Origin: an uncultured Paracoccaceae bacterium
GTDB lineage: Bacteria; Pseudomonadota; Alphaproteobacteria; Rhodobacterales; Rhodobacteraceae
Length of the DNA stretch: 64,000 nucleotides
NCBI GenBank assembly: GCA_947502145.1
Contig: CANMYO010000001.1
Span: forward strand, 1,481,501 to 1,545,500
Direction: 5' to 3'
Shown here: positions 6,267-56,152 of the stretch, in pieces
Numbering within the stretch: position 1 is the stretch's first letter
Layout of the letters: each line of letters starts with the position of its first letter
The notes under the pieces: model-generated
The model's database searches: none
The model's input: only the letters and a program-made list of their open reading frames with translations
What the model was told of the DNA's origin: nothing
Made by a program: the position numbers and the translations under genes

Positions 6267-6583
6267 TGACGCCGCTGCGTTGGGTCTGGCTTGCGCTTGC
6301 GCTTTGGGGCGCCATCCACCCGATGTATTATTTCGTGAAGTGGTTCATGGCCGAAGGCTGGTCATTGGCGGCGATGGTGGATGCCTGGCACGTCAATGCA
6401 GCGGCAAGTGGTTTGGTCTGGGATTTGACCATCGCGGCAGTAACGCTGACGGTCTGGATCGTCGCAGAGGGCGTTTCGCGGCGCGAATGGGCGGGCCTTC
6501 TGGCGATTCCGGCGACCTTCTGTATTGGCGTCAGCTGTGGCTTGCCGCTTTACCTGTTTTTGCGGGGGCGGGCCGCTGGATGA
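6266..6583 (+). CDS. small membrane protein, DUF2834-like
   Basis: A 105-residue protein with about three hydrophobic segments: near residues 4-24, around 50-65 after HVNAAASGLVWDLTIAA, and 78-98. The pattern of a short N-terminal helix, a WDLTIAAVTLTVWIV helix and a C-terminal GLPLYLFLRGR resembles DUF2834 inner-membrane proteins of unknown role. The ATG at 6266 overlaps the lipoprotein stop by one base (TGATG), so it is coupled to argH. The stop codon lies inside the first copy of the dispersed palindromic element. Confidence 0.8.
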   Translation: MTPLRWVWLALALWGAIHPMYYFVKWFMAEGWSLAAMVDAWHVNAAASGLVWDLTIAAVTLTVWIVAEGVSRREWAGLLAIPATFCIGVSCGLPLYLFLRGRAAG

Positions 6584-6631
6584 CGCTCTTGCCCGGCGAT
6601 GCCGGTCAAAACGCCCCACCCACCGTCCCGT
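6577..6631 (+). repeat. dispersed palindromic element, copy 1
   Basis: This starts at the stop codon of the DUF2834-like gene. The left core is GACGCT; the inner stem is TTGCCCGGC (6589-6597) / GCCGGTCAA (6601-6609) with one mismatch and loop GAT; the right core is ACGCCCCACCCACCGTCCCG. The element shares these cores with copies near 33261, 35911, 40957, 45031 and 56094 and lies between a plus-strand stop and lysA. Confidence 0.7.
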
Positions 6632-6710
6632 AGCGCCGAGCGCGCATATCTAGGGTTGGGCTTTGCGTTTGATCTGCTATGTCAGCGGGAGTTTTCGCTG
6701 AGGGTTGAAC

Positions 6711-7976: not shown

Positions 7977-8039
7977 CCGATTTGGTGCAATCCGCATGAG
8001 TGGAGAGACCTGCTGACCCAGACGACGCAGTTCCGTCAT

Positions 8040-10694: not shown

Positions 10695-10697
10695 CGC

Positions 10698-11747: not shown

Positions 11748-11770
11748 TTTACCTGTCCTCACGGCCTGCT

Positions 11771-11797: not shown

Positions 11798-11832
11798 CAT
11801 TTCTTAGCAACCGTGGCGGCAAAGGCAAAGGA

Positions 11833-11860: not shown

Positions 11861-11915
11861 TGTAACCTGTTGCAGATTTGGGCAGAACAGGCACGCAAAC
11901 CCAAGGAGTTGACCC

Positions 11916-15028: not shown

Positions 15029-15036
15029 ACAGCGGG

Positions 15037-32182: not shown

Positions 32183-33259
32183 GTGAAAAACCCTCAGGAT
32201 ATGGACCTTGCAGAGCTGACGTCAATCCGCGCCTTTGCGGCCTTTGTCGTGGTGCTGCTGCATATGTATCTGGACGAAAACGCCATGGCGTCGTCGTTCT
32301 GGGCGCGGGTGATCGCTGATGGGCATCTGGGCGTTGATCTGTTTTTCATCCTGAGCGGGTTTATCCTGACCCATGTTTACCTGCCGCAGTGGCAGGCCGG
32401 GACATTCCGTTTCGGCAAGTTTCTGAGCAACCGGATTTCGCGGATTTATCCGCTGCATCTGGTGATGTTGCTGGTCTTCGTGCTGGCCTATCAGGGGCTG
32501 CGACTGACCGGGTTGGGCAGTGATTTTGTCGGTGAGGACTGGGCCGCGTTTCCCGCACATCTGGGGCTGTTGCATGCCTGGGGGACAGTTGATCACCACG
32601 CCTGGAATTTTCCGTCCTGGTCCGTCAGTGCCGAATTTTTCGCCTATCTGATCTTTCCGCTGATGCTTTGGGCGTTGCTGCGGCTGGGCGCCTGGTCGGC
32701 CCTGGGGGTGGGCCTGGTGCTGTTTGGTCTGGCGGGTGAAATTCTGGCGCGGCAGGGCGTGCTGATTACCAAGATGATGTTTGATTTTGGCATCGTGCGG
32801 ATCTTTTTCGAATTTGCGATTGGTGTCGCGCTTTACCGGGTGTTTCTGGTGTGGCGGGTGCCCGCGGCCATGACGCGACCGCTGTTGCTGGCGCTGATTG
32901 TGGCGGTGATCGGGCTGGCCGGGGTGCAGGCGGATGAGCGGCTGATCGTGATTTGCCTTGCGGCTGTGATCTTTGTGGTTGGCTGTCTCAGCATGGAAGA
33001 ACGCGGGTCGATCATGCGCCATCGCGCCTTGGTCTATCTGGGCGAGATTTCATATGCGACCTACATGGTGCATATTTTCGTGCTGTTCGTGATGAACAAG
33101 ATCGCCGAGATTCTGGGCCTGACCACCGGTGCGGGGGCGCTGGTGATTGATCTGGTCATCCTGGTGCTGATCTATGGCGGATCTGCGCTGCTTTATCACC
33201 TTGTCGAACGGCCCTGCCGCGCGTTGCTGCGCCGGGGGTTTGCCCGGATCTGGCGCTAG
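32183..33259 (+). CDS. acyltransferase 3-family membrane protein (OafA/OatA-like)
   Basis: A 358-residue inner-membrane acyltransferase with about ten helices. Typical family motifs are LTSIRAFAAFVVVLLHMYL with the essential His (about 11-29), a DLFFILSGFILTHVYL block (about 52-67), SRIYPLHLVMLL (about 85-96) and the C-terminal YATYMVHIFVL. Such enzymes move acetyl or other acyl groups onto sugars, lipids or cell-wall polymers; the acceptor is unknown. GTG 32183 with CAGGAG 5 bases before it is a better start than GTG 32168. Its stop is followed by a copy of the palindromic element. Confidence 0.9.
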   Translation: MKNPQDMDLAELTSIRAFAAFVVVLLHMYLDENAMASSFWARVIADGHLGVDLFFILSGFILTHVYLPQWQAGTFRFGKFLSNRISRIYPLHLVMLLVFVLAYQGLRLTGLGSDFVGEDWAAFPAHLGLLHAWGTVDHHAWNFPSWSVSAEFFAYLIFPLMLWALLRLGAWSALGVGLVLFGLAGEILARQGVLITKMMFDFGIVRIFFEFAIGVALYRVFLVWRVPAAMTRPLLLALIVAVIGLAGVQADERLIVICLAAVIFVVGCLSMEERGSIMRHRALVYLGEISYATYMVHIFVLFVMNKIAEILGLTTGAGALVIDLVILVLIYGGSALLYHLVERPCRALLRRGFARIWR

Positions 33260-33260
33260 G

Positions 33261-33317
33261 CGGGACAGCGGACGACGCTATTTGGCTGCGCCAAACGCGC
33301 CCCGCCCACCGTCCCGT
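33261..33317 (+). repeat. dispersed palindromic element, copy 2
   Basis: This lies between the acyltransferase stop and the convergent cobO stop. The left core is GGACGACGCT; the inner stem is TTTGGC (33281-33286), loop TGC, GCCAAA (33290-33295); the right core is GCGCCCCGCCCACCGTCCCGT. The outer CGGGAC (33261-33266) can also pair with GTCCCG. Confidence 0.8.
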
Positions 33318-33321
33318 CTGA

Positions 33322-34617: not shown

Positions 34618-37600
34618 TCAGGGGTTGGCCAGAAGTCCGGCGATGCGCGCGCGAGCCGAGTTTGACTTGGGTGTCCACAGACCACGGTCCATCGCCTCGG
34701 ACAAACGGGCGGCGATGTCGCGCAGGGCGGGCGCGTTATGCGTGGCGATGAAGTCGCGGGTGTCGTCGTCCTTGAGGAACGCCTCTTCCACCAGATCAAA
34801 GTGATGGTTGCGCACCACGCCGGTGGTTGCGGCAAAGGCAAAGAGGTAATCCACGGTGGCCGCCATTTCAAAGGCGCCCTTGTATCCGTGGCGTTTGACC
34901 CCGGTGATCCATTTGGGATTGACCACGCGGCTGCGCAGTACCCGGCCGATCTCATCCTCGAGGGTGCGGATCACCGGGCGTTCGGGGCGCGAATGGTCAT
35001 TGTGGTAGATCGGGCGGTCCTGCCCTTGCAGGGTGGCGACAGCGGCGGCGGCCCCGCCTTCGAACTGGTAATAATCATCGGAGTCCAGCACGTCGTGTTC
35101 CCGGTTGTCCTGGTTTTGCACGATGGCGTCGGTCTGGGTCAGGCGCTGTTCAAAGGCCGGGCGGGCGGCAGTGCCCTGCGCATCCGCGCCATAGGCGTAG
35201 GACCCCCATGTGAGGTAGGCCTCGGCCAGGTCGGTTTTGTCGGCCCAGAGTTTCTCGTCGATCATCGCCTGCAATCCCGCGCCGTAAGCGCCGGGTTTGG
35301 AACCAAAGACCCGCGCCCCGTCCTGACCTTGTCGGGCGCGATCGGCTGCGGGGTTGACTGCGGCCGGGTCGTCAAGGGCCTGCACCGCGCGGGCGGCGCT
35401 GTCGACAAGGGCAATCAGTTGCGGGAAGGCATCCCGAAAGAAGCCGGATATCCGCAGGGTCACATCGACGCGGGGGCGGCCAAGTGTGGTCTGGGGGATG
35501 ACGGCAAAGCCGGTGACGCGGCGGTTGGCGCTGTCCCAGGTGGGTTTGACGCCCATCAGGGCGAGGGCCTGCGCGATGTCATCGCCGCCGGTGCGCATAT
35601 TGGCTGTGCCCCAGGCCGAGATCAGCAGGCTGCGCGGCCAGTCGCCGTGGTCCTGCAAATGCTTGTCGATCAGGAGGTTGGCGGATTTCCACCCCAGCGC
35701 CCAGGCGGTTGGCGTGGGCACGGCGCGGCTGTCAACGGAGTAGAAATTGCGCCCTGTGGGTAATGTATCGAGCCGCCCGCGCGTCGGCGCGCCAGAGGGG
35801 CCCGCAGGGATCGCCCGCCCGTCAAGCGCCCGCAGCAGGCTGGCGCCTTCCTGCGGTCCGCAGGCGCGGATTGCGGGCAGGATCCTGGTGTTGATCTGGT
35901 GCAGGACACTGGCCGACGCTGGTCCCGGAGCAGGCTCCGGAACGGCGCCCCGCCCACCGTCCCGCAACAGGCGTTGCGCCATGTTTTCGAGCCGTTCGAC
36001 CGTGTCGCCGTTGCTGCGCCATGTGGTGTCATCGGCAAGGGCTGCGGGTTTTTCCGGGGCCGGGGCGGCCATGTCACAATCAAGCGGGTCAACAGAAAGA
36101 CCAAGGTCAGTGGCCAGCGCCCGCAAGAGCGATGCGTTTTCCCCTTTGCCGTCACCACGGGGAATCCGGGCGAGCGCGATGGCGAGGTCGGTTTCCTGCT
36201 GGCCGGTCGGGCTTTGCCCGAAAACATGCAGGCCGTCGCGGATCTGCGCCTCTTTCAGGTCGCAGAGGTAGGCGTCAAGCCTGGCAAGGTCGGTGTCGGC
36301 ATCGCCCGAGAACCCTGCGTCCTTGGCCAGACCGGTGACGTCGGACAGCGAGAGAATCTCGCGGCGCAGGTGGTCGATGCGGCGCGGGTCAACGCCTGCC
36401 GCTTCGTAATATTCGTCCACCAGCGCTTCGAGGTCGCGCAGCGGGCCATAGGTTTCCGCCCGGGTCAGCGGTGGCGTCAGGTGATCCACGATGACGGCGG
36501 ACGTGCGGCGTTTGGCCTGGGTGCCTTCGCCGGGATCGTTGACGATGAAGGGGTAGATATGTGGTGTCGCGCCCAGGGCAATTTCCGGCCAGCTTTCGGC
36601 ATCCAGCGCCAGTGCCTTGCCGGGCAGCCATTCCAGATTGCCATGTTTGCCCATGTGCACGATGGCGTCCGCGCCCCAGTGGTGGCGCAGCCAGAAGTAG
36701 AATGCGAGGTAGTTGTGCGGCGGCACAAGATCAGGCGAATGGTAGGTTTCGGTCGGGTCGATATTATAGCCGCGCGCCGGTTGCAGACCCACAATGGCAT
36801 TGCCGAAACGGTGGATCGACAGTTTGAAGCCATCGGCCCCAACGTCAAAGAAGGGATCATTGCCGGGCGCGCCCCAACGGTCGGTGATCTGTTGTTTCGC
36901 AGCCCAGGGCAGGGCATCGAAGTGGGATTGGTAAACGGCCAGCGGCAGCGTTTCGCCGCCGCGTTTGTTGGCGCGGTCGGTGAGCCAGTTTGTTGGACCG
37001 GCCATCAGTTGATCCATCAACGCCTGCGGATCAGCGGGGGCGTCCGTCCGGTAGCCCGCCGCTTGCAGCAGGTTCAGGCTGTGCACAGTGGCGGCGGGCG
37101 TATCGAGGCCAACGCCATTGGCCAGCCGGCCATCCTTGTTGGGATAATTGGCAAGGATCAGCGCGACCTTGCGATCCTGTGGATCGGTTTGGCGCAGGCG
37201 GGCCCAGTTGCGGGCCAGTTGCGCGACGTAATCAACACGGTCCCCGACACCCTGATAGGTTGCGATCGGGCATTGGGTTTCGGCGTCGAAGAAGGCTTCG
37301 GATTTGAAGCTGACCGCGCGGGACAGGATGCGGCCGTCGACCTCGGGCAGGGCGACGTTCATCGCGATGTCGCGCCCCGAGAGGCCTTGCGGGTTATTGC
37401 GCCAGATTTCTTCGGTGGTGCTGGACAGGATGACCTGAAACACTGGCGCGTCATTCACCAAGAGCGGGTTGGTCGGGCTGTCGTCGCCGTCATGGGGGCT
37501 GCCCACGGCGAAGGCGGTGCAATTGAGGATGACCGTGGGCGGGGCTTGCTCAAACAATTGCGAGAGCGTGGCGGTGCTGACCGGGTCCTTGAGGCTGGCC

Positions 37601-38310
37601 ACAAAGATCGGCAGCGGGTTCAGCCCGGCGCGGGTCAGGCTGCGGCACAACCGGTTGATCGGGTTCAGCCCGCCCCCCTGCACCAGCGCCCGGTAGAAGA
37701 TGATTGGCACAACCGGTGCCCCCTGCGCCCATGCGGTGCGGGCCGCGTCAAGGTCCGCAATTCCGCCGCCGGGCCAATAGACACCGCAACGCAGCAAGGG
37801 CGCGGCGGGCGCAGGTTTCTCTGACCCATTGATAATTGCGCGCGCATATTCAAGAAATGATGTGGTATTTTGAGGTCCGCCCTCAACAAGGTAGGACCAG
37901 AGCGCGTCATAATCGCCATCGCTGACGGTGGAGAGGCTGCGCAGCTCCGGGTCCGGCTTATCGTCGCCGGGCAGGAAGGCCACCGGCACCCCGGCGGCAT
38001 GCAGCCGCGCGGCGTATTGGGTGAACCCGTACTTCCAGTAACCGGCGCCGCCGAGGACGCGGGCGATCACCAGCCGTGATTTTGTGGCGCAATCGTCCAG
38101 ATGCAGATCCACCGACATCGGGTGTTGCAGATGCATCATGTTCGCCAGTCGCAACCCCGGCGGATCGGCCATTTGCGCGCGCGCCTCCGACAGGGCGGCG
38201 AGTTCGGTATCCGCGGCAGAAATCACCACCAGATCAGCGGGGGACTGGCCCAGATCGACGGGCTCATCGCCATCGGCGATGGTGCCGGGTGTGGCTGCTA
38301 GAAGATGCAT
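34618..38310 (-). CDS. cobN: cobaltochelatase subunit CobN
   Basis: The 1230-residue large subunit of the aerobic ATP-dependent cobaltochelatase, which with CobS and CobT inserts Co2+ into hydrogenobyrinic acid a,c-diamide. Typical CobN/BchH blocks are visible: YWKYGFTQYAARL and RVDYVAQLARNWARL in the first half, NYLAFYFWLRHHWGADAIVHMGKHGNLEWLPG (about 520-555), and LPTGRNFYSVDSRAVPT (about 850-866). The C-terminal region has TGVKRHGYKGAFEMAATVDYLF. Residues about 783-800 are encoded by a copy of the dispersed palindromic element. It is 34 bases after the GNAT gene in the hupE-cobW operon. cobS and cobT are not in the window. Confidence 0.96.
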   Translation of the reverse strand: MHLLAATPGTIADGDEPVDLGQSPADLVVISAADTELAALSEARAQMADPPGLRLANMMHLQHPMSVDLHLDDCATKSRLVIARVLGGAGYWKYGFTQYAARLHAAGVPVAFLPGDDKPDPELRSLSTVSDGDYDALWSYLVEGGPQNTTSFLEYARAIINGSEKPAPAAPLLRCGVYWPGGGIADLDAARTAWAQGAPVVPIIFYRALVQGGGLNPINRLCRSLTRAGLNPLPIFVASLKDPVSTATLSQLFEQAPPTVILNCTAFAVGSPHDGDDSPTNPLLVNDAPVFQVILSSTTEEIWRNNPQGLSGRDIAMNVALPEVDGRILSRAVSFKSEAFFDAETQCPIATYQGVGDRVDYVAQLARNWARLRQTDPQDRKVALILANYPNKDGRLANGVGLDTPAATVHSLNLLQAAGYRTDAPADPQALMDQLMAGPTNWLTDRANKRGGETLPLAVYQSHFDALPWAAKQQITDRWGAPGNDPFFDVGADGFKLSIHRFGNAIVGLQPARGYNIDPTETYHSPDLVPPHNYLAFYFWLRHHWGADAIVHMGKHGNLEWLPGKALALDAESWPEIALGATPHIYPFIVNDPGEGTQAKRRTSAVIVDHLTPPLTRAETYGPLRDLEALVDEYYEAAGVDPRRIDHLRREILSLSDVTGLAKDAGFSGDADTDLARLDAYLCDLKEAQIRDGLHVFGQSPTGQQETDLAIALARIPRGDGKGENASLLRALATDLGLSVDPLDCDMAAPAPEKPAALADDTTWRSNGDTVERLENMAQRLLRDGGRGAVPEPAPGPASASVLHQINTRILPAIRACGPQEGASLLRALDGRAIPAGPSGAPTRGRLDTLPTGRNFYSVDSRAVPTPTAWALGWKSANLLIDKHLQDHGDWPRSLLISAWGTANMRTGGDDIAQALALMGVKPTWDSANRRVTGFAVIPQTTLGRPRVDVTLRISGFFRDAFPQLIALVDSAARAVQALDDPAAVNPAADRARQGQDGARVFGSKPGAYGAGLQAMIDEKLWADKTDLAEAYLTWGSYAYGADAQGTAARPAFEQRLTQTDAIVQNQDNREHDVLDSDDYYQFEGGAAAAVATLQGQDRPIYHNDHSRPERPVIRTLEDEIGRVLRSRVVNPKWITGVKRHGYKGAFEMAATVDYLFAFAATTGVVRNHHFDLVEEAFLKDDDTRDFIATHNAPALRDIAARLSEAMDRGLWTPKSNSARARIAGLLANP
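35911..35965 (+). repeat. dispersed palindromic element, copy 3, inside cobN
   Basis: The left core is GGCCGACGCT; the inner stem is TCCCGGAGC (35923-35931), loop AG, GCTCCGGAA (35934-35942) with one mismatch; the right core is CGGCGCCCCGCCCACCGTCC, then CG. It lies antisense inside the cobN reading frame and encodes a Gly/Arg/Pro/Ala segment (about residues 783-800). The cores match the intergenic copies, so this is an insertion tolerated in frame rather than ordinary coding sequence. Confidence 0.72.
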
Positions 38311-40577: not shown

Positions 40578-40689
40578 GTCTACCCCTTCAGGTCATCTGT
40601 TAAGGGGGATGCGTGGAGTGCGCGGGCATGATGCCGTTTGCTGACCCCCCGGAACACCCCGTCCGTTGTATTAGTCCGACCCATCTGGG

Positions 40690-40900
40690 GCCGCGCATGG
40701 CTGGTCTCCTGGCTTGCGGGTCGATGCGTTCTGCGGCCTTCCCGGTTTCCCAGTGGCTTCGGTGCAGGACGCTCTCCGCTTACAGTCGCGGGGGCGGCTG
40801 TGGTTGTGGGTCTCCCCTTCAGGATCGGCCCGTCCACATTCCCATTTCATCCCCCGAGGCTTTGGCCTTTGTTGGGGGAACCATGCGGGGTGTTTGTGCG
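40690..40900 (-). promoter_or_regulatory. cobalamin (B12) riboswitch upstream of hupE
   Basis: Read on the minus strand, the region begins near a GCATGGTTCCC segment (about 40890-40877), has the conserved core GCCCCCGCGACTGTAAGC (near 40790) and GCCACTGGG (near 40750), and ends with the B12 box AGCCAGGAGACCAGCCAT (40696-40714). These elements in this order are the adenosylcobalamin-type riboswitch. It precedes hupE by about 110 bases, which must hold the expression platform near the AAGGGG. B12 should lower hupE expression. Confidence 0.93.
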
Positions 40901-40956
40901 CCCGGAGGTGGGGTGACGTCAAGGCGGAATGCGACATTCTGTCCGGGGTGGGCGAC

Positions 40957-41004
40957 GGACGACGCTATTGCCCTGCGGGCAAGGCGCCCCGCCCGCCGTC
41001 CCGT
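40957..41004 (+). repeat. dispersed palindromic element, copy 4
   Basis: This lies in the divergent gap between the hupE riboswitch and smc. The left core is GGACGACGCT; the inner stem is TTGCCC (40968-40973), loop TGC, GGGCAA (40977-40982); the right core is GGCGCCCCGCCCGCCGTCCCGT. It is the only copy not directly downstream of a plus-strand gene or inside a gene. Confidence 0.82.
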
Positions 41005-41026
41005 AGGGGCAATTGCCGCAATATGT

Positions 41027-41133: not shown

Positions 41134-44100
41134 TTGCGTTTTTCCAGACTGCGGCTGAATGGCTTCAAGAGCTTTGTGGACCCGACCGATCTGGTGATCG
41201 CGGACGGGTTGACGGGTGTTGTCGGCCCCAATGGCTGCGGCAAGTCCAACCTGCTGGAAGCCTTGCGGTGGGTGATGGGTGAGAACCGCCCCACGGCGAT
41301 GCGCGGCGGCGGCATGGAAGATGTCATTTTTGCCGGGGCCGCCACGCGCCCGGCGCGCAACTTTGCCGAGGTGTCGTTGCACATCGACAATGCTGAACGG
41401 CTGGCGCCGGCGGCGTTCAACGATGCAGACACGCTGGAAATCGTGCGACGGATCACCCGTGATGCGGGGTCGGCCTATAAGGTTGGTGCCAAGGATGTGC
41501 GTGCGCGGGATGTGCAGATGCTGTTTGCCGATGCCTCGACCGGGGCCCATTCCCCGGCGCTGGTGCGGCAGGGTCAAATCAGTGAGCTGATCAACGCCAA
41601 GCCAAAGGCCCGGCGGCGCATTCTGGAGGAAGCGGCCGGGATTTCGGGGCTTTATCAGCGCCGCCATGAGGCGGAACTGAAGTTGCGAGGGGCTGAAACC
41701 AACCTGACGCGGGTTGACGATGTGGTTGAGCAGCTGGCCGCGCAGCTGTCGCAACTGGCGCGGCAGGCCCGCCAGGCCGCCCGGTACCGGGAGATCGGCA
41801 GCGCGTTGCGGCAGGCCGATGGGCTGTTGCTTTACCGGCGGTGGAAAGAGGCGGATGAGGCGCTGTTTGCCGCGCAGGCGCAATTGCGCGAACGCACGAC
41901 GGCTGCGGCCCAGGCGGAAACCAACGCCCGGCAGGCGGCAAAGGGGCGGGCAGAGGCAGAAGCCGCCCTGCCGCCGTTTCGCGAGGAAGAAGCGATTGCG
42001 GCCGCGGTGTTGCAGCGTCTGGCGGTGCAGCGTGACACGCTGGCCGATCAGGAAGCCCGTGCCGTTGCGGCGATTGAAACCCTGCAGGCGCGGATTGAAC
42101 AGCTGTCGCGCGACATGGCGCGCGAATCCGGGCTGAACCGAGATGCCGGTGAGACGATTGAGCGTCTTGAATGGGAAGCCGGGGAAATCGCCAAGGCGGG
42201 CGAGGGCCACGCCGAAAAGCTGGACGCGGCGCGCAATGCGGCATCTGAGGCGGCGCTGACTTTGCAGGCCCGCGAGGAAGATTTGTCGCAGCTGACCGAA
42301 GATGTGGCGCGCCTTGCCGCGCGGCATCAGTCTGCGCAGCGCCTGTTGGACGACAGCCGGACGACATTGCAGAAATCCGAAACTGAAGAGGCGAAGGCCA
42401 AGGCGGCGATGGCCGAGGCACGGGCCACGCTGGCGCGGGCCGAAGCGGATTTTGCAAGCGCCGGACAGGCCGAGGCGCAGGCTGTGGCCACCGCTGCTGC
42501 GGCGGATGAGACCCTGCTGGCGGCAGAAGCGGCCCGGGCTGACACACAGGCCCGCGAGAGCGACGCACGTGGCAAGCGATCCGAGGCAGAGGGCGAGGCC
42601 AATGCGCTGCGCGCCGAAGTCGCCGCATTGGCGCGCATGGTGGAACGGGACACCGCTGAGGGCGGGCAGGTGCTGGACCTGCTGCGGGTTGATTCAGGTT
42701 ATGAAAAGGCACTGGGTGCGGCGCTGGCTGATGATCTGCGCGCTCCGGCGGTCGATGCGGATGCAAAAAGCGGCTGGGCCGCATTGCCGGGCTATGCCGA
42801 CCCGCAAACCCTGCCTGCCGGGGTCAAGGCGCTGACCAACTTTGTGTCGGTGCCGGATGTGCTGGTCCGGCGCATGGGCCAGGTGGGTCTGGTGGATGCC
42901 ACCGAAGGTGCGCGTTTGCAGGCCGATCTGAAACCGGGGCAGCGGTTGGTATCTGCAGAGGGTGATCTGTGGCGCTGGGACGGCTTCCGGGCCGGGGCCG
43001 AGGATGCGCCGTCGGCGGCCGCCCTGCGGTTGCAGCAACTGAACCGCCTTGCGGGGTTGAAGCTGGATCTCGAAGCGGCCAGCGCCACGGCACAGGGCAT
43101 GGTGCAGGCGCATGAGGCGCTGACCGCGCGGCTGGCGGAACTGACCGAAGCAGATCAGAAGGCGCGGCAGGCGCGGCGCGATGCGGATCGTTTGGTTGCG
43201 GATGCAAACCGGGCGCTGAGCCGGGCCGAAGCCGATCGCAATCTGAGCCAGGGCCGGGTGGAATCGCAGGCGCTGGCCGCAAAACGCCATGCCGAAGAGG
43301 CGATGGCGGCGCGGGCATCGCTCGCTGAGGCGGAAAAGGCATCGGGTGATCTTGATGATCTGGATGCGGCCCGCGCAGAGGTCGAAGACATCAAGATGAC
43401 GGTCGAGGCGGCGCGGATCACGATGATGTCGCGGCGGTCGTCACATGACGAAATTCGCCGCGAGGGCGAAGCGCGCCTGAAACGCAGTCAGGAGATCGCC
43501 AAAGAGGTTTCGGGCTGGAAGCACCGGCTTGAGACGGCCAACAAACGCACCGCGGAACTGGAAGAGCGCAAGGCGGAGTCGGAGCTGGCGCTGAAGGATG
43601 CGACGGCGGCACCGGAGGAAATAGCCGCCAAACGCGCCGAACTGGCGGATGCAATTGATACGGCCGAAACCCGGCGCAAGGCGGCGGCCGATATTCTTGC
43701 CACGGCGGAAACCGCCTTGCGCGCGGCCAATGATGCAGAGCGTGAAGCGGAGCGTGAAGCCTCGGAAGCGCGCGAGGCGCGGGCGCGGTCAGAGGCGCGC
43801 GCGGATGCGGCGCGCGAGACGGTCGAGGCCGCGGCGGAACGGATCATGGAAGCGCAGGAGGTGACGCCGGATGCGCTGCTGGAGGCGCTGGACGTTGACC
43901 CCGACAAGATGCCAGACGCCGAAAAGATCGAGGCGCAGGTCAATACCTACAAGCGGCAGCGGGATGCGCTGGGCGCGGTGAACCTGCGCGCCGAGGAAGA
44001 TTCAAAAGAGGTGCGCGAAGAGCACGACACGCTGGTCAATGAAAAGGCCGATCTGGAGGCTGCGATCGCGGCGCTGCGGTCCGGCATTGCGGCGCTGAAC

Positions 44101-44589
44101 AAAGAAGGTCGTGAGCGGCTGGTGACGGCCTTTGAGCAGGTGAACGGCAGTTTCGGGCAGTTGTTCCGGCATTTGTTTGGCGGCGGCGAGGCCAAACTGG
44201 TGCTGGTGGAATCCGATGATCCGCTTGAGGCCGGTCTGGAGATCATGTGTCAGCCGCCGGGCAAGAAACTGTCGACGCTTTCGCTGTTGTCGGGTGGGGA
44301 GCAGACCCTGACGGCGCTGGCGCTGATCTTTGCGGTCTTCCTGGCCAATCCCGCGCCGATCTGTGTGCTCGACGAGGTGGATGCGCCCCTGGATGATGCC
44401 AATGTCACCCGGTTCTGTGATCTGCTGGACGAGATGGCGCGCCAGACGGACACCCGGTTCCTGATCATCACCCACCATGCGGTCACGATGAGCCGGATGG
44501 ATCGCCTGTTTGGCGTGACGATGGGAGAGCAGGGCGTGTCGCAGCTGGTGTCGGTCGATCTCAAGAAGGCCGAGGCGATGGTGGCCTGA
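41134..44589 (+). CDS. smc: chromosome segregation protein SMC
   Basis: An 1151-residue condensin ATPase that organises and segregates the chromosome. The N-terminal head has Walker A VVGPNGCGKSNLLEAL (about 29-44). Two long coiled coils (about 165-490 and 640-930, very Ala/Glu/Arg-rich) flank a hinge region (about 505-620). The C-terminal head has the signature LSLLSGGEQTLTALAL (near 1048-1063) and Walker B ICVLDEVDAPLDD (near 1077-1089). The start is TTG 41134 with AGGGGGC upstream and the expected MRFSRLRLNGFKSF. scpA and scpB are not in the window. Confidence 0.96.
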   Translation: MRFSRLRLNGFKSFVDPTDLVIADGLTGVVGPNGCGKSNLLEALRWVMGENRPTAMRGGGMEDVIFAGAATRPARNFAEVSLHIDNAERLAPAAFNDADTLEIVRRITRDAGSAYKVGAKDVRARDVQMLFADASTGAHSPALVRQGQISELINAKPKARRRILEEAAGISGLYQRRHEAELKLRGAETNLTRVDDVVEQLAAQLSQLARQARQAARYREIGSALRQADGLLLYRRWKEADEALFAAQAQLRERTTAAAQAETNARQAAKGRAEAEAALPPFREEEAIAAAVLQRLAVQRDTLADQEARAVAAIETLQARIEQLSRDMARESGLNRDAGETIERLEWEAGEIAKAGEGHAEKLDAARNAASEAALTLQAREEDLSQLTEDVARLAARHQSAQRLLDDSRTTLQKSETEEAKAKAAMAEARATLARAEADFASAGQAEAQAVATAAAADETLLAAEAARADTQARESDARGKRSEAEGEANALRAEVAALARMVERDTAEGGQVLDLLRVDSGYEKALGAALADDLRAPAVDADAKSGWAALPGYADPQTLPAGVKALTNFVSVPDVLVRRMGQVGLVDATEGARLQADLKPGQRLVSAEGDLWRWDGFRAGAEDAPSAAALRLQQLNRLAGLKLDLEAASATAQGMVQAHEALTARLAELTEADQKARQARRDADRLVADANRALSRAEADRNLSQGRVESQALAAKRHAEEAMAARASLAEAEKASGDLDDLDAARAEVEDIKMTVEAARITMMSRRSSHDEIRREGEARLKRSQEIAKEVSGWKHRLETANKRTAELEERKAESELALKDATAAPEEIAAKRAELADAIDTAETRRKAAADILATAETALRAANDAEREAEREASEAREARARSEARADAARETVEAAAERIMEAQEVTPDALLEALDVDPDKMPDAEKIEAQVNTYKRQRDALGAVNLRAEEDSKEVREEHDTLVNEKADLEAAIAALRSGIAALNKEGRERLVTAFEQVNGSFGQLFRHLFGGGEAKLVLVESDDPLEAGLEIMCQPPGKKLSTLSLLSGGEQTLTALALIFAVFLANPAPICVLDEVDAPLDDANVTRFCDLLDEMARQTDTRFLIITHHAVTMSRMDRLFGVTMGEQGVSQLVSVDLKKAEAMVA

Positions 44590-45017: not shown

Positions 45018-45030
45018 CGGCCCGGGCCGT

Positions 45031-45080
45031 CGTGCGACGCTGTTGCGCTGACGCGCAAGGCGCCCCGCCCACCGTCCCGT
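45031..45080 (+). repeat. dispersed palindromic element, copy 5
   Basis: This lies between the stop of the secreted-protein gene and the convergent transglycosylase stop at 45081. The left core is TGCGACGCTG; the inner stem is TTGCGC (45043-45048), loop TGAC, GCGCAA (45053-45058); the right core is GGCGCCCCGCCCACCGTCCC. Confidence 0.82.
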
Positions 45081-46244
45081 TCAGAGTTTGCCAAGAAGTT
45101 CCGGTGTGGGCCATGCATCCGCAGGCAGGCCGAGGCGTTGTTGTTCGACCTGCACCGCGGCGCGGGTTTTGGCCCCGAGAATTCCGTCGATGCCACCCAC
45201 GTCATGGCCCAGTGCTGTAAGTTTTTCCTGCAGGCGCATCATGTCTTCACCCGCAAGCCCGGTATCGGGGTTGCCCGCGTCATAGGCCGGTGCGCCCATC
45301 AGACGGGTGCCAAAGTAGGCCGCGGTTGTGACGTAGACAAAGCTTTTGTTCCATTCGAAATAGACGTCAAAGTTGGGATAGGCGAGGAAGGCAGGTCCCT
45401 TGCGCCCCATCGGCAAAAGCACCGATGCGGGCAGATCCGCCGGGCCAAGGGCACCGGTGCGGGCGGTCACGCCCGATGCCTGCCAGTCTGCAACGCTGCG
45501 TTTGTGATTGAGCCCCGTCAGCGACCAGTCGAGATCGGCGGGCACGCGAATTTCCTGCAGCCACGGTTCATTGGCGCGCCAACCAAGGTTTGACAGCACA
45601 TTGGCCCCCGACAGCAGGGCATCGGGCGCAGAGGTCTTGAGCGTCACCCGGCCGTCCCCATCCCCATCGCGGCCATAGGCGATGATGTCTTCGGGCAGCA
45701 TCTGGACCTGACCGATTTCGCCCGCCCAGGCTCCGGTGGTGGTGGCAGGATCAAAATCGCCACGCGCGGCCAATGCGATGCCGGCAATCAGCTGGGGGCG
45801 GAACAGTTCTGGCCGGCGGCAATCATGGGCCAGCGTCAGCAGGGCGTTGCGCGTATTGAAGTTGCCCTGCACCTGGCCGAAATCGGTTTCGAAGGCCCAA
45901 AACGCAAGGATGACGCCGCGGGGAATACCATATTCGGCGGCGATCCGGTCAAAGGTCGCATCGTGGCGGTCGCCATAGATGCGCCCGTTATCAAGGCGGT
46001 TCTGGCTGATCAGCCGCCGGGAAAAGTCGATGAAATCGCGCTGAAAGACGCCCTGCGCGCGGTCGGCCTTGATCACGTTGGGATCAAGGGCGGCCCCGGC
46101 AAAGAAGGCGTCGACGTCGGTGGCGGCAATGCCTTTTGACACTGCCTCTGCCTTGACGCCTGCGATAAATGCGGGCAACGGACCACCGCAGGTCTGGGCG
46201 CTGGCGTGGCCAGCCAAAAGGGTCAGGATCAGGGCGATGCGCAT
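45081..46244 (-). CDS. MltB-family lytic murein transglycosylase with peptidoglycan-binding domain
   Basis: A 387-residue periplasmic enzyme with a signal peptide (about 1-16). The SLT_2/MltB domain (about 22-310) has the catalytic Glu in ILAFWAFETDFGQVQGNFNT (about 112-131) and AGEIGQVQMLPEDIIAYG (about 174-191). A C-terminal PG_binding_1 domain (about 330-387) contains MMRLQEKLTALGHDVGGIDG and GAKTRAAVQ. There is no lipobox Cys after the signal, so it is soluble. It cleaves glycan strands. A second transglycosylase of different type is at 25.7 kb. It is separated from the cbiB stop by 39 bases on the same strand. Confidence 0.93.
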   Translation of the reverse strand: MRIALILTLLAGHASAQTCGGPLPAFIAGVKAEAVSKGIAATDVDAFFAGAALDPNVIKADRAQGVFQRDFIDFSRRLISQNRLDNGRIYGDRHDATFDRIAAEYGIPRGVILAFWAFETDFGQVQGNFNTRNALLTLAHDCRRPELFRPQLIAGIALAARGDFDPATTTGAWAGEIGQVQMLPEDIIAYGRDGDGDGRVTLKTSAPDALLSGANVLSNLGWRANEPWLQEIRVPADLDWSLTGLNHKRSVADWQASGVTARTGALGPADLPASVLLPMGRKGPAFLAYPNFDVYFEWNKSFVYVTTAAYFGTRLMGAPAYDAGNPDTGLAGEDMMRLQEKLTALGHDVGGIDGILGAKTRAAVQVEQQRLGLPADAWPTPELLGKL

Positions 46245-50327: not shown

Positions 50328-50543
50328 ATGCGCCTGATCCTGACCCTTTGCCTGACCTTTCTTGCCAGCGCGGTGAGCGCCCACCCCGGTCATATCATCG
50401 ACGTTGCCGGACATGACCATTGGGTTGCGGGCATCGCCATTGGCGCAGCGGTTGCGATTGGGTTGTGGGGCGCGCTGCGTCCCAAGAAGGGGGAGGTCGA
50501 AGAGGCTGAGCCCGAGGGTGAGATGGAAGAGGAAGCGGCGTGA
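50328..50543 (+). CDS. small His-containing exported membrane protein at the head of the cob operon (DUF6732-like)
   Basis: A 71-residue protein: a signal peptide (about 1-18, ending AVSA), a mature start HPGHIIDVAGHDHW with five histidines, one hydrophobic helix (about 33-48) and an acidic tail. The His-rich start facing the periplasm suggests divalent metal capture, fitting a cobalt-uptake helper. It resembles the DUF6732 proteins I recall from this group, but this naming is uncertain. ATG 50328 has CGGAG 6 bases before. Its stop overlaps the cbiX ATG, so it is coupled to the corrin-methylation genes. Confidence 0.78.
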   Translation: MRLILTLCLTFLASAVSAHPGHIIDVAGHDHWVAGIAIGAAVAIGLWGALRPKKGEVEEAEPEGEMEEEAA

Positions 50544-51754
50544 AAACCGGCGTCATAATCTGCGGCCATGGGTCGCGCAGTCAGTCGGCCGTGGATGAAT
50601 TCGCTGTGCTGGCGGAAAAACTGCCCGCCTATCTGCCCGACGACTGGATCACCGATTATGGGTATCTTGAGTTTGCAAATCCGGTGATCCGTGACGGGCT
50701 GGACCGGCTGCGCGCGGCTGGATGCGCGCGCATTCTGGCCGTGCCGGGCATGTTGTTTGCCGCAATGCACGCCAAGAACGACATTCCCACCGTGCTGAAT
50801 ACCTATGCCAGCAAACACGGCATTGATGTCCGCTATGGGCGCGAATTGGGCGTGGACCCCAAGATGGTCGCGGCGGCCGCAGCGCGGGTGCAAGAGGCGG
50901 TCAGCGCCGCCAATGCCACCCATGGAGATCTGCCGTTGCATGAGACCTGTCTGGTGGTGATCGGACGCGGGGCCTCTGACCCGGATGCAAATGGCAACGT
51001 CAGCAAGATTGCGCGGCTGTTGCAGGAGGGCATGGGGTTTGGCTGGTGCGAAGTCGGATTTTCCGGCGTGACATTTCCGCTGGTGGAACCCTGTCTGCAG
51101 CATGTGGCGCGTCTGCCTTACAAACGCGTCATCGTCTTCCCCTATTTCCTGTTTTCGGGCATTCTGATTGACCGGATTTACGGCTTTACCGATCAGGTTG
51201 CGGCGGCCCATCCCGGGATCAACTTTATCAAGGCCCCTTATCTGGGTGATCACCCCAAGGTGCTGGAAACCTTTGCGGAGCGGATCACCGAGCAGGTCAG
51301 TGCGGTGCCCCCGCCCAACTGCGGTATCTGCGGGTATCGCGAACAGATCCTTGCGCTTGAGGATGGCGGCCACCACCACATCACACCACAAGAGCGCAAG
51401 CACCCCGCCTTTGGTGACGTGCCGCCACCCACTTGCGTGATGTGCAAATACCGCACCGAAGTGTTGGGATTTGAGGCCGAAGTCGGCGCCGTGCAGGAAA
51501 GCCATCACCACCACGTTGAGGGTCAGGGCGCAAATGCGCCGGGGTCAAACGTGTCTGATTGCAACCTGTGTGACAGCTTTTGCACCGGGCTTTGCCGGTT
51601 GCAGAGTGAACAACATCACCATCACCACGATCATGGGCATGATCACCACCATGGGCATGGCCACGGGCACGGGCATGATCATCACCATGCGACCTATCCC
51701 CATGCAGACCACCCGCATGGCCCGGAAAGTGCCAGAAAACCGCAAAAGGCGTAA
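50540..51754 (+). CDS. cbiX: sirohydrochlorin/cobalt chelatase CbiX, long His-rich form
   Basis: A 404-residue class II chelatase of the CbiX-long type. The two-domain core has the N-terminal catalytic-type His10 in IICGHGSRS and His79 in PGMLFAAMHAKND. The second half has VVIGRGASDPDAN and YFLFSGILIDRIY. After residue 260 come three cysteine pairs (CGIC, CVMC, CNLC) plus CTGLC, probably for a metal or Fe-S cluster. The tail from about 357 is dominated by His/Gly/Asp (HHHHHDHGHDHHHGHGHG). It would insert or hold cobalt. Occurrence with cobN in one genome is notable. It is coupled to the small upstream gene, and cobH starts one base after its stop. Confidence 0.93.
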   Translation: MKTGVIICGHGSRSQSAVDEFAVLAEKLPAYLPDDWITDYGYLEFANPVIRDGLDRLRAAGCARILAVPGMLFAAMHAKNDIPTVLNTYASKHGIDVRYGRELGVDPKMVAAAAARVQEAVSAANATHGDLPLHETCLVVIGRGASDPDANGNVSKIARLLQEGMGFGWCEVGFSGVTFPLVEPCLQHVARLPYKRVIVFPYFLFSGILIDRIYGFTDQVAAAHPGINFIKAPYLGDHPKVLETFAERITEQVSAVPPPNCGICGYREQILALEDGGHHHITPQERKHPAFGDVPPPTCVMCKYRTEVLGFEAEVGAVQESHHHHVEGQGANAPGSNVSDCNLCDSFCTGLCRLQSEQHHHHHDHGHDHHHGHGHGHGHDHHHATYPHADHPHGPESARKPQKA

Positions 51755-51755
51755 T

Positions 51756-52394
51756 GTGAGACCCTACGAGAAAGACCCCGGCGCGATCTATGCGCAAAGC
51801 TTTGCCACGGTGCGGGCAGAGGCACGGCTGGAGCGGTTTCAGGCGGATATGCGCCCGATGATCACCCGGTTGATCCATGCCTGCGGCATGGTTGAAGTGG
51901 CCGACCGGCTGGTCTGGTCGCCTGCGGCCTTTGCGGCAGGACACGCTGCCCTGCGTGCCGGGCGGCCGGTGCTTTGTGATTGCGAAATGGTCGGTGCGGG
52001 GATCATTCGTCGTTATCTGCCCAACAACAACGATGTCATCGTGACGCTGAATGACGCCAGTGTGCCCGAACGTGCCAAGGCGATTGGCAATACCCGCTCT
52101 GCCGCGGCGGTTGAATTGTGGGCTGACCATCTGGAAGACGCGGTTGTGGCGATCGGAAATGCACCAACGGCGCTGTTTCATCTGCTTGAGCTGCTGGATG
52201 CCGGTGCGCCGAAACCGGCGGTGATCCTGGGGTTTCCGGTTGGATTTGTCGGCGCGGCGGAGAGCAAGGCAGAGCTGGCAGCGGCCCCGCGCGGTTGCGA
52301 ATTTGTCGCCCTGCGGGGACGGCGGGGCGGTTCGGCCATTGCATCAGCGGCGGTGAACGCCCTGTCCGCAGGCCTGCCGGAGGAAACAGCATGA
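51756..52394 (+). CDS. cobH: precorrin-8X methylmutase
   Basis: A 212-residue enzyme that moves the C11 methyl to C12 to give hydrogenobyrinate. The family start is PYEKDPGAIYAQSFATVRAEARLERF; later DCEMVGAGIIRRYLP and RSAAAVELWADHL lead to GFPVGFVGAAESK and the end ALRGRRGGSAIASAAVNAL. The start is GTG 51756, with AAAGGCG 5 bases upstream; the frame is open upstream but overlaps cbiX. It overlaps cobL by ATGA. Confidence 0.95.
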   Translation: MRPYEKDPGAIYAQSFATVRAEARLERFQADMRPMITRLIHACGMVEVADRLVWSPAAFAAGHAALRAGRPVLCDCEMVGAGIIRRYLPNNNDVIVTLNDASVPERAKAIGNTRSAAAVELWADHLEDAVVAIGNAPTALFHLLELLDAGAPKPAVILGFPVGFVGAAESKAELAAAPRGCEFVALRGRRGGSAIASAAVNALSAGLPEETA

Positions 52395-53593: not shown

Positions 53594-54291
53594 GCGGGAC
53601 ATTGTATGGTGTGGGCGTCGGCCCCGGCGCGCCGGACCTTGTGACATTGCGCGCCGCGCGGCTGATTGAGGCGGCTGCGGTCGTGGCCTACCCCTCGCTC
53701 GCGGGGGCGGACAGCTTTGCGCGGTCGATCGTGGCGGAGCTGATCCCGGATGGCGCAGCAGAGATCGTCATGGATGTGCCAATGACTATCGCCCGCGCAC
53801 CGGCGCAGGCGGCCTATGATCAGGGCGCGGCAGACATTGCCGCCGCCCTGGATGCGGGCCGCGATGTGGTGTGCCTCTGTGAGGGGGATCCGTTCTTTTA
53901 CGGGTCGTTCATGTATCTGTTTGCGCGGCTGTCTGACCGGTATCGGGTTGAAATTGTGCCGGGTGTGACTTCTGTCACGGCCTGCGCGGGCAGTGCGGGT
54001 CGTCCGTTGACCGCCCGCAATGAGCGGCTGACGGTGCTGCCCGGCCCGCTGCCGGAGGCAGAGCTGCGGGCCCGGATTGATGGCGCGGAGAGCGTGGCAA
54101 TCATGAAGGTCGGGCGGCATCTGCCCAAAATCCGCGGCGTGATCGCGGCGCTGGGCCTGACTGGTTCAGCGGTCTATGTGCAGCGCGCGACACTGCCTGA
54201 CGAAGTGGTGCTGCCGCTGGCGGATGCGCCGGAGACGGCACCGTACTTTTCAATGATATTGCTGACCAAAGGGGCCGATCCATGGCTGTGA
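53590..54291 (+). CDS. cobI: precorrin-2 C20-methyltransferase
   Basis: A 233-residue SAM-dependent tetrapyrrole methylase making precorrin-3A. It starts LYGVGVGPGAPDLVTLRAARLIEAA, the methylase family N-motif, and has the LCEGDPFFYGSFMYLF block (about 96-111) and VEIVPGVTSVTACAGSAGRPL (about 119-139), the C20 subtype. ATG 53590 overlaps the cobL stop; the open frame extends into cobL. The next gene starts 10 bases before its stop. Confidence 0.95.
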   Translation: MSGTLYGVGVGPGAPDLVTLRAARLIEAAAVVAYPSLAGADSFARSIVAELIPDGAAEIVMDVPMTIARAPAQAAYDQGAADIAAALDAGRDVVCLCEGDPFFYGSFMYLFARLSDRYRVEIVPGVTSVTACAGSAGRPLTARNERLTVLPGPLPEAELRARIDGAESVAIMKVGRHLPKIRGVIAALGLTGSAVYVQRATLPDEVVLPLADAPETAPYFSMILLTKGADPWL

Positions 54292-56099
54292 AACCGGTTG
54301 TTCTGGCACTGTCGCGGTCCGGTGAGGGCACCGCGCATCGCGTCGCGGAGGCGCTTGGCGCAGCTGTGCACGGGCGCAAGGGGCGTGTCGCCGCGGCGGA
54401 TGCCTATTTTGACAATGCACTGGATCATGCGCGCGATTTGTTTGCGGCGGGGGTTCCGGTTGTTGGGGTCTGCGCCAGCGGCATTCTGATCCGGGCGGTG
54501 GCCCCGTTGCTGGCTGACAAGACAACAGAGCCACCGGTGGTCAGTGTCGCCGATGACGGGTCGGTGGTAGTGCCGCTTTTGGGGGGACACCGCGGCGCGA
54601 ACCGGTTGGCGGGGCAGATCGCCGCTGCGCTGGGCGCGGTATCGGCGGTGACGACCGCCGGCGATGTCGCATTGGGTGTCGCGCTGGATGAACCGCCCGC
54701 AGGCTGGCGGCTGGTGAACCCCGAACATGCAAAGGGCGCGATGGCGATGTTGCTGTCGGGGGCGGGCGCGAGGATTTGCGATGATGAGGCCGCCAAGGCA
54801 GGCTGGCTTGCCGATCTCCCGCAGGGCGAGGGGCTGCGAATTTCCTGCACGATGGAACCGCTTGACGATCTGGGGGACAGCCATTTGCAATTTACGCCAC
54901 AGCGGGTAGCGCTTGGCGTGGGGTGCGCCCGCAATTGCCCGCCCGAGGAACTGGGCGCGCTGGTTGACGAGATGATGGCGGAGGCGGGGATCGTGCCCGC
55001 GGCCGTGCATTCGATCAATACGCTTGATCTGAAGGCGGACGAACCCGCCATTCTTGCACTTTCTGCCCGTCTGAATGCGCCGTTGCGGTTGTTTTCGGCC
55101 GCAGAGTTGGACGCTTTGACGGCAAGGGTCGAGACCCCGTCGGATGTGGTCTTTGCCGAGGTCGGCACCCATTCGGTGGCGGAGGCCGGGGCTTTGGCGC
55201 AGTCCGAAAGCGCGATCCTGTGGTATCCCAAGCGCAAGACCGAGATGAGCACCTGTGCCATTTCAGTGACCCCGATGCCATTGGTGGACTTGCAAGGGCG
55301 CGGTCGCGGCAAGCTGTCGATTGTCGGCATCGGGCCGGGGCAGGCGACCTGGCGCACGCCAGAGGTGTCAAAACTGGTGGCAGAGGCCGAGGAATTGGTG
55401 GGCTACGGGCTCTATATCGATTTGCTGGGGCCGTTGGCCGTCGGCAAGGCCCGGTCCGATTTTCCCCTTGGCGGGGAAGAGGCCCGGTGCCGCTATGCGC
55501 TGGAGCAGGCCGGGCGGGGAAAAAATGTCGCGCTGGTCTGTTCCGGTGATGCGGGCATTTATGCCATGGGCGCGTTGGTGTTTGAATTGCTGGACCGGGG
55601 GCCGGATCAGATGGGCGTTTGTGACGCGGCACGCCGGATCGAGGTGCAATGTTCGCCCGGTGTCAGCGCCCTGCAGGGGGCCGCGGCGCGGGCGGGTGCG
55701 CCGCTGGGACATGATTTCTGCGCGATTTCGCTGTCCGACCTGCTGACCCCGCGCGACGATATTCTGCGGCGGTTGAAAGCGGCGGCAGAGGGGGACTTTG
55801 TGATCGCGTTTTACAACCCGGTTTCAAAGACCCGGCGCACACTATTGGCCGAAGGGCGCGATATCCTGTTGCAGCACCGCCCGGCGGATACACCTGTGAT
55901 GCTGGCCTCTTCGCTGGGGCGGCCAGAGGAGCACATCCGCTATCGGCGGCTGGAAGAGCTGGACGTTGACGAAGTGGACATGCTGACCGTCGTGCTGGTG
56001 GGGTCGTCCAATTCACGCATTGCGCATCTGGGCGAAGGGCCACGCATGTTCACACCTCGCGGCTATGCACGCAAGATTGATGGGGATCTGGCGGGATGA
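54282..56099 (+). CDS. cobJ: CbiG-CobJ fusion: cobalamin CbiG-like domain with precorrin-3B C17-methyltransferase
   Basis: A 605-residue fusion. The N-terminal CbiG part (about 1-335) has VVGVCASGILIRAVAPLLADK (about 60-80), PLLGGHRGANRLA, and the C-terminal CbiG block LGVGCARNCPPEEL and DLKADEPAILALSARL. The C-terminal CobJ part (about 342-605) begins GKLSIVGIGPGQATWRTPE and has CSGDAGIYAMGALVFEL and SDLLTPRDDILRRL. CbiG opens the ring-A delta-lactone in the anaerobic route; CobJ contracts the ring and methylates C17. Its presence suggests a mixed route as in Rhodobacter with CobZ. It overlaps cobI by 10 bases. Confidence 0.94.
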   Translation: MAVKPVVLALSRSGEGTAHRVAEALGAAVHGRKGRVAAADAYFDNALDHARDLFAAGVPVVGVCASGILIRAVAPLLADKTTEPPVVSVADDGSVVVPLLGGHRGANRLAGQIAAALGAVSAVTTAGDVALGVALDEPPAGWRLVNPEHAKGAMAMLLSGAGARICDDEAAKAGWLADLPQGEGLRISCTMEPLDDLGDSHLQFTPQRVALGVGCARNCPPEELGALVDEMMAEAGIVPAAVHSINTLDLKADEPAILALSARLNAPLRLFSAAELDALTARVETPSDVVFAEVGTHSVAEAGALAQSESAILWYPKRKTEMSTCAISVTPMPLVDLQGRGRGKLSIVGIGPGQATWRTPEVSKLVAEAEELVGYGLYIDLLGPLAVGKARSDFPLGGEEARCRYALEQAGRGKNVALVCSGDAGIYAMGALVFELLDRGPDQMGVCDAARRIEVQCSPGVSALQGAAARAGAPLGHDFCAISLSDLLTPRDDILRRLKAAAEGDFVIAFYNPVSKTRRTLLAEGRDILLQHRPADTPVMLASSLGRPEEHIRYRRLEELDVDEVDMLTVVLVGSSNSRIAHLGEGPRMFTPRGYARKIDGDLAG

Positions 56100-56152
56100 T
56101 GTCCGTCGCTGTTTCCCCGTGCCGGGGAAAGGCGCCCCGCCCACCATCCCGT
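56094..56152 (+). repeat. dispersed palindromic element, copy 6
   Basis: This starts at the stop codon of the cbiG-cobJ gene and ends just before the cobM ribosome binding site. The left core is TCCGTCGCTG; the inner stem is a perfect TTTCCCCG (56112-56119), loop TGC, CGGGGAAA (56123-56130); the right core is GGCGCCCCGCCCACCATCCC, with one A for G. Confidence 0.8.

Follow-up and report, generated by a model that had tools for sequence, protein, structure and literature searches.

Palindromes dispersed over bacterial chromosomes are usually read as mobile debris or as structures at the 3′ ends of mRNAs. On plasmids and phages, orientation-dependent hairpins such as the single-strand initiation sites (ssi), the single-strand origins (sso), Frpo, and the G4 origin work as single-stranded template. 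Repetitive extragenic palindromes (REPs) of the GTAG and CGTC classes, the latter including RPE-4 and RPE-6 of Rickettsia, are dispersed palindromes of 20–40 bp that lie mostly between or downstream of genes and sometimes inside them; CGTC REPs have a stem of 8–9 bp and no dedicated transposase (PMC3733652). The insertion sequences IS608 and ISDra2 target the lagging strand, and the subterminal hairpins of the IS200/IS605 family are bound by a transposase acting on the lagging-strand template (PMC6006769). Architecture-imparting sequences (AIMS) and FtsK-orienting polar sequences (KOPS) are strand-biased with respect to replication (PMC5993296), while STAXI, a candidate structured RNA of repeated pseudoknots in Enterobacteriales, has been suggested to act as single-stranded DNA (PMC2864571). 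The present analysis concerns a family of palindromic elements of about 64 nt, six copies of which lie in a 64,000-nt stretch of DNA (the window; positions 1481501–1545500 of contig C1) from an uncultured Paracoccaceae bacterium of the Rhodobacteraceae, whose genome (G000) comprises 4.03 Mb in 22 contigs. The properties of these elements suggest an undescribed signal linked to chromosome copying. No description of them was found in the literature searched, a single paper collection, which suggests that the family is undescribed as far as that literature reaches.

All six window copies were found where a sequence-only reading of the window had placed them, and all on one strand; their inner arms differ from copy to copy yet pair, as that reading had observed, with one arm mismatch each in the copies at 6577 and 35911. 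The orthologous sites given below refer to five congeneric genomes (G001 to G005).

6564..6632, plus strand: element copy 1, inner arms TTGCCCGGC/GCCGGTCAA with one mismatch; overlaps a small plus-strand open reading frame (ORF) at the latter's end; a copy is present at the orthologous site in all six genomes of the genus
33256..33318, plus strand: element copy 2, inner arms TTTGGC/GCCAAA; occupies the whole gap between convergent genes; orthologous copy in G005 only
35897..35966, plus strand: element copy 3; antisense within the cobN gene (34618..38310, minus strand)
40943..41005, plus strand: element copy 4, inner arms TTGCCC/GGGCAA; divergent genes on either side; shared by G003, G004, and G005, not in G001 or G002
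45018..45081, plus strand: element copy 5, inner arms TTGCGC/GCGCAA; between convergent genes, immediately past a stop codon
56087..56153, plus strand: element copy 6, inner arms TTTCCCCG/CGGGGAAA; flanked by two plus-strand genes, one cobJ-like and the other cobM; a copy is present at the orthologous site in all six genomes of the genus

These copies are real, not chance matches, and form part of a larger family. When up to three mismatches are allowed, the 20-base right core is matched six times in 64 kb against 0.07 expected, and none of 100 shuffles reached six. The same core search yields 16 copies in the whole of G000, and at E≤0.1 the covariance model built from them (R1) matches G000 19 times and the five congeners 17, 15, 19, 18, and 19 times, one of the 19 in G003 (G003:C2:935153) being a reverse-strand shadow that was dropped.

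Replication polarity and gene context

The copies are oriented with replication, away from the origin, regardless of gene direction. In G321, a genome of another genus assembled in four contigs, contig C1 (3.93 Mb) has 15 plus-strand matches between 0.93 and 2.44 Mb and 15 minus-strand matches elsewhere. GC skew, taken from twenty 20-kb samples, switches sign at 320–500 kb and at 2.52–2.70 Mb, with a locally opposite sign in the 3.88 Mb sample and a value near zero at 3.50 Mb, and agrees with an origin between the last minus-strand copy (434 kb) and the first plus-strand copy (932 kb), an interval in which dnaA (0.79 Mb) likewise lies. With the origin at 470 kb and the terminus at 2.6 Mb, all 30 copies read away from the origin. 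The same holds for 31 of 31 copies on the dnaA-bearing contigs of the window's genus (14 of 14 on G000 C1, 6 of 6 on G003 C2, and 11 of 11 on G004 C1), and contig C1 of both G001 and G002, which is without dnaA, shows a single, terminus-like switch from plus to minus. Smaller sets agree, namely G192 C1 (4/4), G307 C1 (5/5), G178 C1 (5/5), G139 C10 (1/1), G254 C11 (2/2), G150 C6 (2/2), and G284 C12 (3/3), where counting by position assumes one terminus between strand blocks. On those contigs of the draft genome G025 that carry at least two copies, 35 of 36 copies lie on the majority strand of their contig. Among the three roles proposed by the sequence-only reading, that of a strand-biased chromosome element consequently fits best, and the replication strand bias is of the AIMS/KOPS type; the element, however, is a structured unit of 64 nt rather than an octamer whose abundance and bias rise towards the terminus, and 17 of the 30 copies in G321 lie in the terminus-proximal halves, which is no clear rise.

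Gene context gives no such rule. A simple codon-based gene caller found 170 leading-strand and 179 lagging-strand genes in the samples of G321, that is, no strand bias. When each of the 30 sites of the genus is represented once, the preceding gene is on the same strand at 17 and head-on at 12, and the remaining site lies inside a gene; by simple gene calling, 29 are intergenic or overlap gene ends and the other is within cobN. The 30 copies of G321, whose contexts come from a crude gene caller, have a same-strand upstream gene in 19 cases and a head-on one in six, and five overlap a head-on gene, two of them well inside it. The impression of the first reading that copies sit at gene 3′ ends arose because a same-strand gene upstream ends at most 20 nt from where the element begins on its left, as at all 17 such sites of the genus and 17 of the 19 in G321; in the window, four copies (6577, 33261, 45031, and 56094) do begin at or overlap a plus-strand stop codon, as it had stated.

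An RNA element at mRNA 3′ ends, serving end protection, termination, or as a structure resembling the 3′ ends of small RNAs, would match the same-strand gene found upstream at 17 of 30 genus and 19 of 30 G321 sites and the close spacing of those gene ends. As an account of the family it is nevertheless quite improbable. Head-on and antisense copies, among the latter the one in cobN and the two inside genes of G321, together with the 30/30 orientation in a genome without gene strand bias (170:179), mean that a function at mRNA 3′ ends is not the rule, and orientation tracks replication rather than genes. Moreover, there is no U-tract, five element loci have no Rfam match at E≤1, and the inner arms hold no excess of G–U pairs. 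The 3′-end role proposed at the outset is therefore rejected as a general explanation on the strength of the head-on and antisense copies. A plain intrinsic terminator was also ruled out, in accord with the first reading: in none of the six window copies is the right core followed by a T-run.

Some relatives have a separate terminator-like motif downstream of the element. This motif, GCCTCCGGCGGNNRTATTT, consists of a short hairpin and a T-rich tract and stands directly after some elements, for example at L290:2571, 11906, and 16003 and at L296:4384 and 17583; it has 51 matches in G004, 22 in G321, and none in G000, which is of the same genus as G004. Used as a control (up to one mismatch), it is replichore-consistent in 36 of 45 cases (80%), a value raised by control copies that adjoin elements: 17 of 22 in G321 and 19 of 23 on G004 C1, the latter after exclusion of five copies from the stretch in which the origin must lie (21 of 28 if dnaA is set as the boundary). 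The element is consistent in 41 of 41 cases, which differs from the control at p = 0.003 (Fisher).

Covariation and persistence of sites

The element covers about 64 positions with 19 pairs in three helices, which form a three-part, imperfect stem: an outer stem with fixed mismatches, a short CGC/GCG block next to the hairpin, and the variable inner hairpin. The right arm, CGCCCCRCCCRCCRTCCCG, is C-rich and nearly invariant even at unpaired positions, and at its three R positions the left partner mostly follows, giving C-G or T-A. Across the 16 G000 copies, 86.1% of cells in 19 pairs (two helices) are paired against 76.5% after shuffling, and the covariation score is 0.263 against a shuffled mean of 0.105, with none of 500 shuffles as high and slid controls at no more than 0.060. 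Seventy copies from the genus and from other genera gave 0.330 against 0.115 when shuffled (slid controls at most 0.077) in an alignment that was fitted to the model and so favours structure; nine of its pairs have changes on both sides, which is not above shuffles (204 of 500 as high). In the inner arms, 4 cells of G.T type and 7 of A.C type were counted among 534 in one alignment (A5), and 2 and 5 among 411 in another (A4) that shares rows with it. This lack of a G.T excess over A.C weakly favours a fold of DNA rather than RNA.

Two side observations concern the fold. The complement of the right arm, for example at window positions 45059–45080, reads GGGAYGGYGGGYGGGG, with four G-runs separated by one- to two-base spacers, in whose pyrimidines most of the variation lies; such a strand could conceivably form a two-layer G-quadruplex. 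In the orthologous loci L127 and L148, the hairpin is identical and the base preceding it changes together with the two that follow (G with GG, C with AA), a possible sign of a non-canonical contact.

Comparison of flanks sorted the 106 copies of the genus into 30 sites, of which seven are occupied in all six genomes, four in five, and seven in one; two flank clusters, of nine and six loci, were divided manually, each giving two sites. Inverted sites were not seen, there being no minus-strand flank match over the 106 loci. Identities were taken over 171 ortholog pairs in an alignment that leaves out six of the 106 copies, with G001–G002 pairs omitted as near-duplicates. The C columns of the right arm are identical in 0.97–1.00 of pairs, whether paired or not (0.98–1.00 outside the drawn pairs), against 0.55 and 0.49 for the two bases past the right end, and the inner arms range from 0.58 to 0.78 at eight of twelve positions, with 0.93–0.94 in the outermost two pairs. 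When both bases of an inner pair differ between orthologs of different species, a standard pair persists in 167 of 186 cases; of 25 inner changes confined to one side, 21 disrupt the pairing. Two-sided changes in the outer part keep the pair in 63 of 64. These comparisons indicate that the element sites are held by selection while the inner arms are rewritten and their pairing compensated, and they bear out the earlier view that the folded form is maintained or regenerated.

The rewriting could in principle be a mutational product, in which template-switch correction of lagging-strand quasipalindromes restores pairing without selection and conversion spreads variants; inner arms that vary in length and sequence and mostly pair, with some variants recurring at several sites, are in line with it. 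This explanation is very improbable, given that the fixed mismatches of the outer stem are left uncorrected, that the unpaired C-rich arm is conserved, and that the persistence of sites across species would go unexplained. The same arm bears on a second alternative, a polar duplex motif of the KOPS, Chi, or AIMS kind, of which a translocase or nuclease would read the C-rich right arm, the hairpin being secondary. Strict replichore polarity, near invariance of the right arm where it is unpaired, and the loose pairing of the outer left arm would suit such a motif. It too is improbable, as covariation of both inner and outer stem needs a reason, copy number is low (39 or fewer), and in G321 no clear rise towards the terminus was seen.

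Individual sites are dispensable and changeable, as follows from the cobN site and from the loss at 45031. The gene at 34618–38310 encodes CobN (TIGR02257, 1595 bits against a cut-off of 822), and in G000, G001, G004, and G005 it carries the antisense element, an open frame of at least 948 codons spanning it in each fetched stretch; G002 and G003 have ordinary coding sequence at this place. G001 and G002 are close, with near-identical copies, and their cobN genes (L292, L293) differ over about 100 bases around the element site, as if a stretch had been exchanged by recombination. At the 45031 site, the same two genomes retain only a left-arm-like stretch between the convergent genes.

Distribution and mobility

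As far as the two covariance models see, only part of the Rhodobacteraceae carries the element. Model R1 has a match at E≤1e-5 in 32 of 100 genomes of the family and, when only 13 candidates were scored per genome, at E≤1e-7 in 55 of 394. A wider model (R2), built from 100 diverse copies, matches 13 of 41 genomes, one per genus, at E≤1e-3, with a maximum of 39 matches in G025; the genome searches with both models were filtered, so that weak matches are lost. The search of the genome and its relatives with a covariance model, which the sequence-only reading had proposed, thus gave 19 matches in G000, 15–19 per congener, and presence in 13 of 41 genera. That reading would have yielded to a finding of these six copies only, with no conserved stem and random orientation; there are more copies, the stem is kept, and the orientation is not random.

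A pattern scan of named genomes gave a similar picture. Among the 80 loci listed, 53 match R1 at E≤0.01 (57 matches), and 50 of these 53 belong to Rhodobacteraceae or to alphaproteobacterial metagenome-assembled genomes (MAGs); the genera among the listed loci include Tateyamaria (with copies in the culturable roseobacter T. omphalii), Silicimonas, Pseudooceanicola, Wenxinia, Roseovarius, Litoreibacter, Marivita, and Pelagimonas. The titles of the other three place them outside the family: a Streptomyces (E 0.006), a Planctomycetota MAG (0.009), and a Euryarchaeota MAG (8e-5), the last with a 33.7-bit match at L233:5367-5410 that may be due to chance, to misbinning, or to a distant copy. Three of the 27 listed loci without a model match carry names of the family (Allgaiera, Wenxinia saemankumensis, and a Roseobacter isolate); most of the others come from GC-rich bacteria of different groups and are regarded as chance matches to the core. 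The window copies have no Rfam match at gathering score, so the element falls in no known RNA family there, and no match was found in the phage records searched. The plasmid search gave a single match (E 3e-3), in Martelella, which lies under an ABC-transporter gene, spans 70% of the query at 84%, and is read as chance.

A REP-like or IS200/IS605-like mobile hairpin would explain polarity in another way: an HUH enzyme would insert it into the single-stranded template of the lagging strand, which would set the orientation, and re-insertion or conversion would replace copies. The lagging-strand targeting of IS608 and ISDra2 (PMC6006769) is a precedent. Two hairpins from different sites resemble each other a little more when they share a genome than when they do not (difference 0.011, reached in 1 of 300 permutations), and near-identical pairs within genomes number 12 against 6.3 (7 of 300), in a test that left out G002 as a near-duplicate and for which seven hairpins were delimited by hand. 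Two sites of G004, 4 kb apart, share the same hairpin, right cores one base apart, and the same following terminator-like tract, and the presence or absence of the element in cobN points the same way. These likenesses are suggestive, not proof, of inner hairpins being occasionally copied between sites.

As the origin of the present copies, such a mobile hairpin is nonetheless rather unlikely. The REP-associated tyrosine transposase (RAYT) type of enzyme, searched for as the Y1_Tnp domain (PF01797), turned up in just one of the 10 element-rich genomes searched and in one of three that lack R1 matches, and the GTAG-REP association with a RAYT/Y1 enzyme is therefore lacking. The matches stay at a steady 15–19 at conserved sites instead of spreading, and orthologous hairpins change yet stay paired, which is not expected of inert insertions. 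No conserved GTAG was found at the element ends, where a few copies have a TAG stop codon; copies are single, at least about 1.6 kb from their neighbours (reverse-strand shadows aside), and no head-to-head dimers were seen. The REP-like role put forward by the first reading, with its associated transposase, was accordingly not borne out, and the REP/RAYT explanation was rejected as a general one. The element may have been spread by another enzyme, or in an ancient spread.

The surroundings of the window copies can be described briefly. Five of the six lie within 23 kb (33256–56153), the densest stretch of G000, whose genes include those for a CobO-type adenosyltransferase, CobN, CobW, CobJ, and CobM along with a cobalamin riboswitch. 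This riboswitch (40682–40900, minus strand) adjoins copy 4 (40957), 129 bases downstream of which an SMC condensin gene begins (41134–44589, TIGR02168). A histidine-codon-rich tract with 18-base steps (51611–51682) lies in the ORF 50540..51754, the start of which resembles sirohydrochlorin chelatases, under the curated cut-off.

A possible lagging-strand signal and its known counterparts

The explanation we place first is that these DNA elements of about 64 nt, selected at fixed sites and oriented with the fork, form a hairpin on the lagging-strand template that is recognized by a protein; it is quite possibly correct, and we hold it tentatively. Because the copies read away from the origin, the element strand would be the lagging-strand template, which would become single-stranded at each passage of the fork and then fold. 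A protein might recognize the folded hairpin by its C-rich arm and stem geometry, with fork restart, priming, or polar signalling in chromosome processing as candidate outcomes. In a wider form, for which our confidence is lower, the elements could be chromosome-wide single-stranded DNA signals, that is, hairpins of the lagging-strand template met by a dedicated protein at every fork passage, at fixed sites and with strict polarity. If so, folded single-stranded DNA would serve a bacterium's native chromosome as a polar landmark of replication or repair.

Several findings weigh against this explanation. In orientation, one of six copies on G025 C13 is opposite to the rest; on G382 C1, four of five copies agree when dnaA is taken as the origin, the exception being 13 kb away and the origin possibly not at dnaA; G284 C17, which lacks dnaA, has one minus-strand and then one plus-strand copy in an origin-like order with no ready explanation; and the sites of the genus are orthologous, so that their orientations are not independent tests. 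In structure, the 16 G000 copies folded singly are no more stable than dinucleotide shuffles (z −1.57 to +0.57), and the evidence for a fold is therefore comparative, not thermodynamic. Pairing is loose in the outer part, where 78% of cells are paired and one of the pairs forms in only 30 of 68 sequences, and one-sided changes there leave no standard pair in 193 of 263 cases and keep one in 70. At the T-G/T-A pair by the inner hairpin, T.G is commonest (42 of 100, alignment A5), which an RNA fold also allows; it fits folding of the element strand as either DNA or RNA. Collecting copies with a covariance model inflates the apparent conservation of the strongest columns, so that of the right arm is partly ascertainment. 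Finally, the element was matched in only 13 of the 41 genera sampled and so is not universal in the family, single sites can be dispensed with, as in cobN where 4 of 6 species have it, and the element has no known protein partner or effect on the fork.

The family is of value because it separates the ideas about dispersed palindromes: it follows replication, not genes, and both structure and unpaired sequence are kept at fixed sites. This makes it testable whether folded single-stranded DNA at the fork is a chromosomal signal, and it provides a natural polarity marker for these chromosomes as well as replicate sites for studying the rewriting of hairpins.

Compared with described systems, the element resembles each in part. 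Like REPs, it is dispersed, palindromic, mostly intergenic, and sometimes within genes (PMC3733652); unlike REPs, it is about 64 nt long with a three-part stem in place of 20–40 bp with a short one, untagged, single, and found at sites shared across species in strict replichore orientation. The CRTC of its right arm is no CGTC tag, as its G/A varies with the partner base inside the stem. It shares replication strand bias with AIMS and KOPS (PMC5993296), from which it differs in being structured, longer, and present in no more than 39 copies per genome searched. As in IS200/IS605 (PMC6006769), a hairpin would be tied to the lagging-strand template, whereas the sites are conserved across species and nine of the 10 element-rich genomes searched yielded no Y1 transposase. 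STAXI is likewise a structured element with a possible role as single-stranded DNA, although its repeated pseudoknots often lie near genes for DNA-handling proteins and are listed for Enterobacteriales (PMC2864571). Set beside ssi, sso, Frpo, and the G4 origin, a comparison made by description only, the difference is one of scale: those hairpins occur once or a few times per plasmid or phage replicon, and the present element chromosome-wide.

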